64,000 nt of DNA. Origin: Papiliotrema nemorosa (lineage: Eukaryota > Basidiomycota > Tremellomycetes > Tremellales > Rhynchogastremaceae). Position 1 is the stretch's first letter, and each line of letters starts with the position of its first letter. The DNA lies in the NCBI GenBank assembly GCA_032158125.1, contig JASKOT010000005.1:124001-188000 (forward strand), read 5' to 3'. This document shows, piece by piece, positions 38,434 through 42,812 of this stretch. The translations under genes were made by a program, and so were the position numbers. The notes under the pieces are model-generated. The model did not search any database and had not been told where the DNA came from. It saw nothing but the letters and a program-made list of their open reading frames with translations.

Positions 38434-40164
38434 CTATCTCTTCCTGTCCAACTCTTCAAGACCCTTCACCACCCTCTCCAAGCGGTTATTCAATCTCCAC
38501 TCGAACCACTTCTCCCCAGTCTCACCCTTGAACTTTTGATTCATAGCGTCCCACACTTGCTTGATAAGCACATGATCACCTCCTGTCATTCTTGAGACAG
38601 CCATCAAGATCCCCCAGACGAATTGTGGACCGGGAGCAATGGTGTTGTCTGGTACCATTCGTGTACCCGGTTGAAGAGCCATGAAAGCCTCGAACAGCGA
38701 GTGGAACATTTTCAACCTCCATTCGTTTTCCGTCGCCTTCTCAGGATCTGACGGACCAGAAGAAAGAGCAGCGCCTGAGTGTTCGCCCAACGCAGTCGAT
38801 CCGCCAGCAGTGGCAGTTCTACCCCTTTCCCAGATTTTGACAAAGTTTTGTAAATCGTTTGACCGGGAGACATTCTCCAATCGTTGACCAACGACCGTCC
38901 GGCCGACCATGAACGTTTCTACACGAGGGAAGAGCTCGAGCGCCGACCCCGTCTGAGGCGCAATCTCTCCAAAAGCCTGGAACCCCGAAAACAGCGACAA
39001 GTATTCGTACACAAACGGAACATGTTGTTTGCTGTACATCTCCTTGAGGATCCTAAGGCTCCCTTCGAGATATCCAGCCAATGCGACCTGTCGAAGTAGA
39101 AGCGAGTACGACTGCCGGTTCGCGGTGATCATTGGGGGAATGGAGAGTGTGCACGACGCTCTGTCGAGCGGAAAACCGACATCTGAATGACCAGTCAAGG
39201 CGATGTAAATCTCGGCCGCGCGACCCCATTGACCTTTCTCGGCGAAAGCGATCATCGCCGTGTTGAGGATATACCTCTTGCCGTTGATCGAAGCCTCCAA
39301 TGCCTGACCTAGCGTTTCCTGGAACCTTCGATCGTCGTCCAAGATGGAAAAATACCGCAATTTGTCGGCATAGTTGCGCGCTTGAGGGGTTAATCGATCC
39401 GTGAATAGCTCTTCCCAATACTGTTCAAATTTGCCCTCTTCCGTCCTCATCACACTGAGCATCCCCATAAAGTAGTCGATCTGATCTCGACAATCCTCTA
39501 ATCGTGGTCCAGGATTCTCGGCCATCAAGCTCCGGATTCTCGCCTCGGCGGTAGCTATCTCGAATTCTGAATGGCGCTTAGATGACCTTGGCTCGATTCG
39601 AAGTAGAACACCGAGTACAAAGCCAGATGCGTCGCCCCCGGTCAGATCTGTGAGATGCCTAATGACAGTCCTGACTTGGGAATCTACAGCCGCCCGATCG
39701 TTTCCACGGGCTTTTTGTTCACTAATGCGGACGATTTGCTTGATGATGAGCATGATCTCGTCGGGGGAGAGCATAGATCCGTACGGAGAAGAATGAAAAG
39801 CTTGGGTGTAGGCGGCATAGACGTGCTTGATGCTGGTATTGGATGGAGTCACAGTGCCAGCTTTGTAGAGTCCTGCTAGGTGTTTTGATCGACTGATGGG
39901 AGATTGGGTCAATCGAGATAATGGCTCGTGTTTCCGTCTTTCGTGCCGCTCGAATTTGCTGGGCAGTCCATCAAGGTCGGGTAGGAAATTTTCGAGAACG
40001 TGATCGGGTCCGGTATTTGGAGGAAGTGGCTGAAAAGCTTCATCGTTCATCATGCTTGTTTGGGCAGATGACTGAAGCCTGGTATAGGTGGAAAATGATC
40101 GTGGTCGGGAAGACAGGACTTGGTAGAAAGCAGACTGAGGCACTTCAATGTTGCCAGCCAACAT
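38434..40164 (-). CDS. PPR-like mitochondrial protein, in frame with GUF1
   Basis: About 576 residues if started at the internal ATG 40164. It begins MLAGNIEVPQSAFYQVLSSR and continues PRSFSTYTRLQSS, which reads like a mitochondrial presequence (Arg-rich, RxFS|T). The body is alpha-helical with at least two PPR-like units: YILNTAMIAFAEKGQWGRAA (about residue 320) and SYSLLLRQVALAGYLEGSLR (about 370). A mitochondrial RNA-related role is likely by analogy. The first 19 residues are identical to the C-terminal end of GUF1, because the last GUF1 exon has no stop and runs straight into this frame. Whether it is made as a fusion or from its own start is open. Confidence 0.72.
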   Translation of the reverse strand: MLAGNIEVPQSAFYQVLSSRPRSFSTYTRLQSSAQTSMMNDEAFQPLPPNTGPDHVLENFLPDLDGLPSKFERHERRKHEPLSRLTQSPISRSKHLAGLYKAGTVTPSNTSIKHVYAAYTQAFHSSPYGSMLSPDEIMLIIKQIVRISEQKARGNDRAAVDSQVRTVIRHLTDLTGGDASGFVLGVLLRIEPRSSKRHSEFEIATAEARIRSLMAENPGPRLEDCRDQIDYFMGMLSVMRTEEGKFEQYWEELFTDRLTPQARNYADKLRYFSILDDDRRFQETLGQALEASINGKRYILNTAMIAFAEKGQWGRAAEIYIALTGHSDVGFPLDRASCTLSIPPMITANRQSYSLLLRQVALAGYLEGSLRILKEMYSKQHVPFVYEYLSLFSGFQAFGEIAPQTGSALELFPRVETFMVGRTVVGQRLENVSRSNDLQNFVKIWERGRTATAGGSTALGEHSGAALSSGPSDPEKATENEWRLKMFHSLFEAFMALQPGTRMVPDNTIAPGPQFVWGILMAVSRMTGGDHVLIKQVWDAMNQKFKGETGEKWFEWRLNNRLERVVKGLEELDRKR

Positions 40165-42812
40165 CTTCAGTCGCTTTTTCCCTTCCTTTTGTTTGGTAAG
40201 CTGTTTGAGCTTTCTCTCAAAGTGGCCTGACGTCAGCCCAGCCTTGCTTGAATCGGAACAGCTCACCTCCGTAAAGTCCTGCGGTCACGTCCTTCCGCAT
40301 GGCAGGTAAGGTTTCTCGAGCGTACACTTTCCCGCCTACTGCAGCTTGGATCGCCAATTCAAAGTATTGCCTCGGCACAACTTCCTCTACTTCATCAGCT
40401 TTTACACGTGGTCAGGTAGAAGAGGGCTGACTGAGTTTCTTAACCCATTCTTTCCCGACTTTTTGTACCGCACTGCGGTGCACAATCATCGCTAGGGCAT
40501 CGACCGGTCGACCGTTTAGCAACATATTCATCTGCCAGTGAGCTTTGATCACGCTATGCGAGCTGGTTTGAGCTCACTTTTACCATGTCCGATTGTTCAT
40601 AGCCTGCGTCTTCATAGTCGAAGGATGCGAAACCCGAGCTAGCACTCTTGAGAGCAGAAAAGAAATCCGTCACGATCTCTACGAGTTTATCAGCTAAAAA
40701 GGCAATCACGGAGGACCTCGCTTACCAGACAAGGGGAACGAGTACTTCAACATGGATCGTCCGGACGTTTCCAGCACTTTGTAGTCCAGTTGTGTGCCTC
40801 GATAGCTCGAGCAGAGGTCCATCATTGCGCCAAGATACTCTGTTGGTCAGCGGATACTGCAGAAGTGATCACGAGTCGCACCATTGGGCACAATAATGGT
40901 CGCAATTACTGAGACGTCAGCCTCAACTAACCGAAACGCACTTTCGACTTACCCATGGGTTCTTCTATTGATCTTGCGCGCATCTTTCCCTGAGCGCCAT
41001 CTGGAAACTCGGCAGGATTCGAAACATAGCTGACTTGGCCATTCGCGTAGGTGACTTCGGTAAGCATTCATCACCGCGGGAAGATCCGACATACTCTTGT
41101 AAGGCACGGTAGGAGCTGTGATGATGACTTCCGAGGAGTATTCGTCCTCCAGACGCTGTCGACTGGAAGGTCAGTCTTGCTTCAACGACCCTGCGAGAAA
41201 ACCTACAAGACGTCCATGTGCAGTGTGCCGAGAAAGCCCAGCCGGAACCCCTGACTGAGCGCGGTTGACGACTCCTTGGCGACGGTCACACTCCGATCAT
41301 TAAGTGTTAGCTGCAAGTTAGCTAGTCCGTCCGCCTGTACACAGCCTCGACAACCAACCCGACCCATGGCTTCTTCCAGTCTGCCAAACTCTGAATTCTC
41401 CATGGGGAACACTCCTGCATACACCTGAAAATCAGCTACTGAGAACGAGCAGCTAAAGGTAGCGGACCATGGCTTTCATCGGCTTGAATCCTGGTAAGGG
41501 CTCGACAATGTCCCGGTCAAGGCAGATTGTATCACCAATATGCGCCTCGTCCGAGTTTTTCATACTGCAAATGAGATAGCTGCGTGGTGAGCCTCACGAA
41601 CAAGGAGCAGTGACCAGCTCACCCGACCTGACCCTCCCGCAACACGTCAACGGGTGTTTCTTCCGGGTTATTGATCCCGATTTCAAGCACCTCAAATTTC
41701 CTGTCGGCCTGTAGGAATCGGATCTTATCTCCAACCTTGACTTCTCCAGAAAACACACGTATGAGGGCGACGACACCTCGATAGTGATCGTAGCTGTCTG
41801 TCAGTCAAGTTGTCCGGTGTCAACCGCTCACTGTGTATCGAATACCAATGCGCGTAGTTTCCCGTCATTGTCTTCCCACTGTCGAGGCGGTGGAAGACCT
41901 TCCACAATTTGGTTCAACACCTTCTCCACACCCAGCCCCGATTTAGCGCTGATATACATGTGTTCCTCGCTTTCCAAGCCTAAAGTTCCTTCTATTTGTA
42001 ATGATGTCTCTTCTGGTGAAGCGTGAGGCAGATCGACTTTGTTTATTACTGCCAAGAGCTTGAGGTCGGCTTCGAGCGCGACGTGGAAGACGGAAAGGGT
42101 TTGTGCTTGGATGCCCTCTGATCGTCAGCTCGAGCACCAGCGAGAGGCGTGTTAGAGCGGGAATGAGGGAGACTCACGGGTACAGTCGACCAGGATCAGT
42201 CCACCTTCACAAGCTCCTATTGATCGTGACACTTCATAGCTGAAATCCACATGTCCAGGTGTATCGATGAGATTGATCAGATACCGTTGCCCATCCGTAT
42301 GTGTATGTATGATAGACACCGTTTGCGCTTTGACCGTTATACCCCGTTCTCTTTCCACCTTCAATTTGTCGAGAAATTGGGCATTGGCAGTATCGGGCAC
42401 CGTTCCTGTCATCTTGGGGTCAGCTCATGCAATCTACAAAGAAAAAGGCTGACCTGTAGCAGCCTATCTGCCAAGGTGGACTTGCCATGGTCAATATGAG
42501 CGATAATGGACAGATTTCTGCCCATCATCAGTCGTGCAGCCATAGAGGACATGTGCACCAGACTCACCGTATCTTGTCCCGCGGAAACTGTTTCATATCT
42601 ACTCCATGGGTCTTTTTCGCTTGAGGATTGGGTATCCTCGCTCTACGCAACGCCGTCGAGGAGAAGTGTCGTAGTGAGCGAAAGTAGAGGGTCGAAGGGC
42701 CAGGACCAGCTCGAGCCAGCCGGCCTGAAGATCCGGCCGGGGCGGTACTTAGTGTACGCGCGGCAGCACTGCATAAAGTGCACAGACTCCGACGCGCGGT
42801 CAGGCTCGCCAT
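40108..42812 (-). CDS. GUF1: mitochondrial translation elongation factor GUF1 (LepA/EF4)
   Basis: Mitochondrial LepA-type GTPase that back-translocates stalled ribosomes. About 11 exons. It starts MASLTARRSLCTLCSAAART with a long presequence. The GTPase motifs are SIIAHIDHGKSTLADRL (P-loop), RERGITVKAQT (switch I), IDTPGHVDFSYEV (G3) and AVINKVDLPHA (G4). LepA-specific C-terminal residues read AMRKDVTAGLYGG joined to HFERKLKQLTKQKEGKKRLK and AGNIEVPQSAFYQVL. The family normally stops a few residues after this point; here there is no stop, and the frame continues to 38434. The coordinate 40108 marks the end of GUF1 similarity, not a stop codon. Middle exons between 40430 and 41700 are short and were not all resolved. 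Confidence 0.9.

Follow-up and report, generated by a model that had tools for sequence, protein, structure and literature searches.

A GUF1-PPR fusion gene in Papiliotrema nemorosa and its relatives, a probable composite mitochondrial precursor

The locus and its gene model

In the tremellomycete fungus Papiliotrema nemorosa, a stretch of 64,000 nucleotides (assembly GCA_032158125.1, contig JASKOT010000005.1, positions 124,001 to 188,000; hereafter the window, whose own numbering is used throughout) carries on its minus strand a gene in which one reading frame encodes two proteins in succession: GUF1, the mitochondrial form of elongation factor 4 (EF4/LepA), a ribosome-binding GTPase, and a helical protein of the pentatricopeptide repeat (PPR) type. 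The gene extends from an ATG at 42812 to a stop codon ending at 38434, and is predicted to contain 16 exons separated by 15 GT..AG introns of 38-60 nucleotides. Introns were placed by reading frame and adjusted by alignment with relatives, and the splice sites are predictions from the sequence. The features of the gene are as follows.

38434..42812, minus strand: GUF1-PPR gene, from ATG to stop (spliced model, 16 exons, 1235 residues)
42568..42812, minus strand: exon 1, encoding a presequence-like N terminus in which the motif is matched at residues 8, 19 and 48 (sequence and motif scan)
40114..42812, minus strand, exons only: GUF1/LepA moiety, residues 1-676, with presequence, GTP_EFTU, GTP_EFTU_D2, EFG_C and LepA_C (Pfam and exon list)
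38434..40226, minus strand: last exon of 1793 nucleotides in the spliced model, intron-free, with the end of LepA_C, the junction and the entire PPR part
40162..40164, minus strand: internal ATG suggested by an earlier note on this DNA, not conserved
40087..40101, minus strand: codons for R681-S-F-S-T, a site of the type used by the mitochondrial processing peptidase (MPP) and Icp55; MPP is predicted to cut past S682 and Icp55 to trim F683
39925..40086, minus strand: unconserved linker past the site, disordered as judged from model confidence (pLDDT)
38437..39909, minus strand: helical PPR-type repeat domain

The four GUF1 domains are matched in the expected order and all above their Pfam cut-offs, with 166.6 bits for GTP_EFTU, 56.2 for GTP_EFTU_D2, 71.2 for EFG_C and 144.8 for LepA_C. 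The last of these covers residues 570-676 and positions 1-106 of the 107 in the profile, and since the profile is almost fully matched at that point, the end of the GUF1 family can be set at L676. As encoded, the protein does not terminate there: 559 further residues follow in the same exon and frame, as the earlier note had recognized, and the minus-strand open reading frame between 40284 and 38434 comprises 616 residues from stop to stop. The acceptor of the last GUF1 exon, which that note had located near 40240, is placed at 40227 in the present model (final intron predicted at 40227-40266). A search of the same genome for LepA_C yielded only two matches, which are two exons of the GUF1-PPR gene, and thus no second, unfused GUF1.

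Conservation of the fused frame

The absence of a stop between the two parts is shared by many relatives. When the whole fusion is used as query, proteins from Kwoniella and Naematelia and a third fused protein align over 98-99% of the region with 28-29% identity, while P0002 reaches 55%. With the GUF1 tail and junction as query, 89 candidates were scored and 65 hits obtained; 33 of these continue through the joint (P0001, the entry of the window itself, among them) and 32 stop, the latter ending 20-46 residues past an anchor conserved in LepA tails. Together with P0005, found with the whole fusion, the continuing sequences make up a fused set of 34. Sixteen fused proteins are assigned to a named species or strain, the sources being Naematelia encephala, Tremella mesenterica, Dioszegia hungarica, Cryptococcus depauperatus, Kwoniella (six proteins), Cutaneotrichosporon (three), Vanrija (two) and Cryptotrichosporon argae. 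We take these to represent Tremellales and Trichosporonales, the order being confirmed for three of them and presumed for the others. The 32 unfused hits include two entries from Cryptococcus neoformans, the named ones among the remaining 30 being listed under Rhizoctonia, Malassezia, rusts, smuts, mushrooms and others, and one under a fern. No member of Filobasidiales or Cystofilobasidiales was recognized by name among the 89 candidates, and the sequences would fix the age of the fusion no further than Tremellales plus Trichosporonales.

These comparisons bear directly on the possibility that the frame is an artefact, in which an error of sequencing or assembly removed a stop codon, or an intron was missed. 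An indel at the junction had been named in the earlier note as a potential refutation, and conservation of the missing stop as a check; the check came out positive, in that 33 other database proteins read across the same joint, and the indel was not borne out. Seventeen of these 33 derive from assemblies and 15 of them lack the G domain, as expected of open reading frames called directly from DNA, and both other frames of the window run into stops less than 40 codons from the joint. Nothing was found in favour of a sequencing or annotation error, whose likelihood we regard as negligible, and this explanation was rejected on the ground that relatives share the read-through.

The extensions themselves are homologous. 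A profile built from five of them, with the GUF1 tail left out, recovers 29 of the 29 others at E values no worse than 5e-49 and does not match any of 61 controls (32 unfused GUF1 proteins and 29 reversed extensions); the extensions thus form a single family. A GUF1 tree with 28 rows places 19 fused sequences and C. neoformans in one clade with a support of 100/100 against eight unfused outgroup rows, and on this tree the fused state has to change twice, one change falling on C. neoformans. The tree of the PPR part separates six Trichosporonales-type rows, set as outgroup, from all others (92/88), and recovers groups compatible with the GUF1 tree, namely the window with P0005 (93/98), Tremella with P0022 (93/97) and the groups of Kwoniella; the deep forks within Tremellales are unsupported either way, and three rows, including the window, are long-branched. 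A single fusion followed by vertical inheritance is the simplest reading of these trees.

The junction

Across the 34 fused sequences, the joint follows with few exceptions the consensus VLSSRPR-x-[FYL]-[STAHC]-T. According to PMC8847149, the motif for cleavage by MPP and then by Icp55 is RX(F/Y/I/L)↓(S/A)(S/T). This strict form is present at 24 of the 34 junctions, or 25 if a neighbouring match in P0024 is counted, and a looser form, R-x-[FYLI]-[SATHC]-[STA], at 33. Position by position, 33 sequences have R at -3, 33 have F (21), Y (9) or L (3) at -1, and 32 have T at +2, while x is free. Conservation then falls from 2.4 to 0.95 bits over the five columns that follow the site and averages 0.71 bits over alignment columns 41-60, and residues 45-114 of the structure model have pLDDT values below 50. 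A mere relic of an old presequence would be expected to have decayed along with the linker.

From residue 61 of the aligned pieces onward, the loose form occurs nine times in 17,401 residues, with no other column holding it in more than three of the 34 sequences, and it is absent from the last 60 residues of all 32 unfused GUF1 proteins. In the window's precursor, matches are confined to residues 8, 19 and 48, within the presequence, and residue 681, at the junction; a match in the N-terminal part was seen in eight of ten precursors scanned, C. neoformans included. The charge of the GUF1 tail is a different matter. In five of five precursors tested, the tail is the most basic 45-residue segment (in the window's protein it is tied with the N-terminal part), and the helical moments of these basic segments lie between the 91st and 95th percentiles; this charge was not counted in favour of the fusion, because unfused GUF1 has the same basic tail.

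It had also been suggested that two overlapping genes share an exon, a second transcript or an internal start at the ATG at 40164 giving rise to a PPR protein that would reuse the GUF1 tail as its presequence. The ATG is indeed present, its product would comprise 576 residues, and the basic stretch that it opens has a presequence-type site at its end. Nevertheless, methionine occupies that column in just three of the 34 sequences, with one more in the next column, and 30 of the 34 have no methionine at all between the KKRLK-type anchor and the site. Internal initiation is thus not a conserved route to the second protein, and a start at 40164 was rejected as a general mechanism. Furthermore, the frame is open through the joint in 34 of 34 sequences, which independent genes would not need. 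We consider overlapping genes to be very improbable, and conservation strongly favours the other alternative offered in the earlier note, a single frame encoding a GUF1-PPR precursor. The likeness of SSRPRSFSTYTRLQ to a presequence, remarked upon in the same note, holds, with the difference that what is conserved looks like a processing site within a precursor, an interpretation that the note did not propose.

The PPR-type extension

The description of the extension as PPR-like is supported by relatives and not by the window's sequence taken alone, which matched no PPR family in Pfam. A profile of five relatives finds designed PPR proteins among PDB entries, with a best E value of 1.4e-53, and 14 of 33 members of the fused set match PPR_2 at an E value of 0.01. 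The C-terminal part of the window's protein is modelled as a superhelix of helical hairpins of the PPR type, and on the basis of these profile and structure models the 559-residue extension folds as a PPR-type repeat protein. A helical solenoid of this kind is common to mitochondrial PPR proteins such as yeast Rmd9, chain 4 of the human mitoribosome and LRPPRC; identity to the listed PDB chains is about 7-18%, and the PDB searches allow no one-to-one counterpart to be named. Judging from its fold, the PPR part most likely binds a mitochondrial RNA.

Stand-alone relatives of the PPR part, sought at 0.55-1.75 times its 559 residues, were not found among 7994 candidates scored in a search that relies on shared 5-residue words, and which distant relatives in other basidiomycetes could escape; the only returns were the window's own open reading frame and P0002, both of which carry LepA_C.

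Another arrangement involving the PPR part is seen in P0036 (715 residues), which is likely to be a three-part precursor in which the GUF1 tail, an RPYST junction and the PPR part are followed by RRG7 (PF10356, residues 614-703, E 1.5e-15); the latter is preceded by AIRQFSLLSTTH, which resembles a presequence cleavage site.

An apparent secondary separation in Cryptococcus neoformans

Both GUF1 entries of C. neoformans (P0033, representing 31 sequences, and P0032, representing one) terminate in ...AFYKVLSSRPRK, with the tail VLSSRPRK, while unfused GUF1 proteins of the outgroups end shortly past LepA_C, for example in ...VLSSKIE. C. neoformans is placed in the GUF1 tree as sister to the fused C. 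depauperatus (100/99). The SSRPR shared with fused relatives, together with this position, indicates descent from a fused ancestor, and, as read from the protein entries, C. neoformans apparently represents a secondary split that retains a scar of the fused state. It may be speculated that the R-K-stop contains a splice donor.

Proposed maturation of the precursor

The protein thus consists of two complete modules in one frame, behind an N-terminal presequence that was judged by motif and charge only, and with a conserved MPP-type motif between them. Most probably, it is a composite precursor that MPP splits in the matrix, releasing GUF1 and the PPR protein as separate products, in the manner of yeast Atp25, the cutting being deduced from the motif. 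A single nuclear gene would produce a single precursor composed of presequence, GUF1, internal processing site and PPR protein, whose import the GUF1 presequence would drive. Once in the matrix, the precursor would be cut by MPP following R-S in RPRS↓F-S-T, after which Icp55 would take off the F. With these cuts and an N-terminal cut at the residue-48 motif, the products would be a GUF1 of approximately 632 residues and 70 kDa, and a PPR protein of approximately 552 residues and 62 kDa, which would act separately. GUF1 would be left nearly at its LepA_C end, with six residues over (SSRPRS). The earlier note had named a band of about 130 kDa as one possible outcome; this value agrees with the uncut precursor, whose calculated mass is 137.9 kDa, and would not correspond to a stable protein if the precursor is cut. 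Candidates for the two peptidases may lie among the matches in the same genome to peptidase M16 (seven exon-level places) and to the aminopeptidase-P N-terminal domain (two places).

Alternatively, the two parts could remain joined as a stable bifunctional fusion, in which the PPR domain steers GUF1 to particular mitochondrial mRNAs on the ribosome. The fusion is conserved across two orders, and approximately 70 disordered residues could serve as a tether. A tether, however, leaves unexplained why the MPP/Icp55 residues alone have been kept, in 33 of 34 sequences, and the remainder of the linker varies freely, and C. neoformans possesses GUF1 entries without any attachment. In addition, PMC4339808 describes a C-terminal domain of EF4 that reaches the peptidyl transferase centre, and last 44 residues that affect ribosome-dependent GTPase activity; an attached tail of 62 kDa would therefore be likely to disturb GUF1. 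We consider a stable fusion improbable.

A number of observations nonetheless weigh against a cut precursor. The long disordered linker could permit a working uncut fusion; the basic stretch ahead of the site, being present in unfused GUF1 as well, is not special to the fusion; and the 34 fused sequences are related to each other and not independent. Where a junction fails the strict motif, the residue at +1 is T, H or C, or the site is absent. P0003 and P0020, two of the ten precursors scanned, lack an N-terminal motif match, and four of nine fused precursors scanned have additional matches after the junction, located 29 residues past the site in P0003 and P0016 and inside the PPR part in P0009 (one) and P0013 (three). 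Finally, P0035, a gene model from Kwoniella dejecticola, lacks the motif, the whole stretch being skipped in frame so that AFFQ is followed directly by AHSDP; this may be an error of annotation or prediction, or a real splice form that leaves the fusion uncut.

If the precursor is cut as proposed, the fusion may serve to keep GUF1 off cytosolic ribosomes before import, by analogy with what has been proposed for Atp25; this rationale may apply because the EF4 C-terminal domain extends to the peptidyl transferase centre. A more specific and rather doubtful idea is that the PPR tail is a lock, which blocks GUF1 while attached and is removed by MPP in the matrix, switching GUF1 on. Were this the case, Atp25 and GUF1-PPR would be convergent examples of mitochondrial factors that act on ribosomes and are made as precursors with a blocked C terminus, and C. 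neoformans, with its re-split pair, would encode GUF1 almost in its cut form (...SSRPRK).

Relation to known systems

Composite mitochondrial precursors are already known, and GUF1 with a PPR protein would be a new partner pair. Atp25 of yeast and Neurospora combines a ribosome-silencing-factor domain and an M-domain in one precursor, which, in PMC7560712 and PMC8893259, is reported for yeast to be cut between its parts during import, the C-terminal piece being freed by MPP; the former source also relates the suggestion that fusion prevents action on cytosolic ribosomes. In both systems a ribosome-binding factor is joined to a C-terminal protein, that of Atp25 acting on a mitochondrial mRNA, which it stabilizes. 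Both parts differ, the present ones being EF4/GUF1 and a PPR protein, and the cutting is here predicted. Arg5,6 and Rsm22-Cox11 likewise consist of two mitochondrial proteins per precursor with an internal MPP motif and a presequence-like stretch, although the proteins and the lineages are other ones; as summarized in PMC8847149, which cites Friedl et al. 2020 on this point, cleavage of Arg5,6 by MPP into two enzymes is experimental, while Rsm22-Cox11 comes from an in silico search. With respect to other GUF1/EF4/LepA proteins, the domains are the same and complete, and the difference lies in the 559 residues that follow LepA_C, soon after which unfused GUF1 ends. Among the matches listed in a search of titles and abstract openings in an open-access collection, no GUF1-PPR fusion was described.

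The cellular role of EF4/LepA is still presented as a matter of debate in PMC4339808 and PMC12787274, and the PPR protein offers a testable partner for it. The lasting one-to-one coupling over two orders suggests that both proteins contribute to one and the same step in the expression of mitochondrial genes. Through the fusion, a general translation factor and an RNA-specific one would be made in equal amounts and would share their targeting. The gene is a clear candidate to join the few mitochondrial precursors that are cut in two, and the kept site with its free flanks is a sequence signature by which further ones could be sought. The long GUF1 entries of Tremellomycetes probably do not represent the mature form.

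Neighbouring genes

Upstream of the GUF1-PPR gene, a divergent open reading frame on the plus strand (43090-43356) begins with MFKNALRPLIRGYATTVTG, which is presequence-like; this piece has no Pfam match, and by eye it resembles cysteine synthase. On the other side, the convergent neighbour, on the plus strand at 37598-38308, encodes a protein of the eIF2B family (PF01008, E 8.4e-40 over 37598-38191), whose frame, followed by eye past a short intron, ends at 38308, approximately 125 bases from the GUF1-PPR stop.

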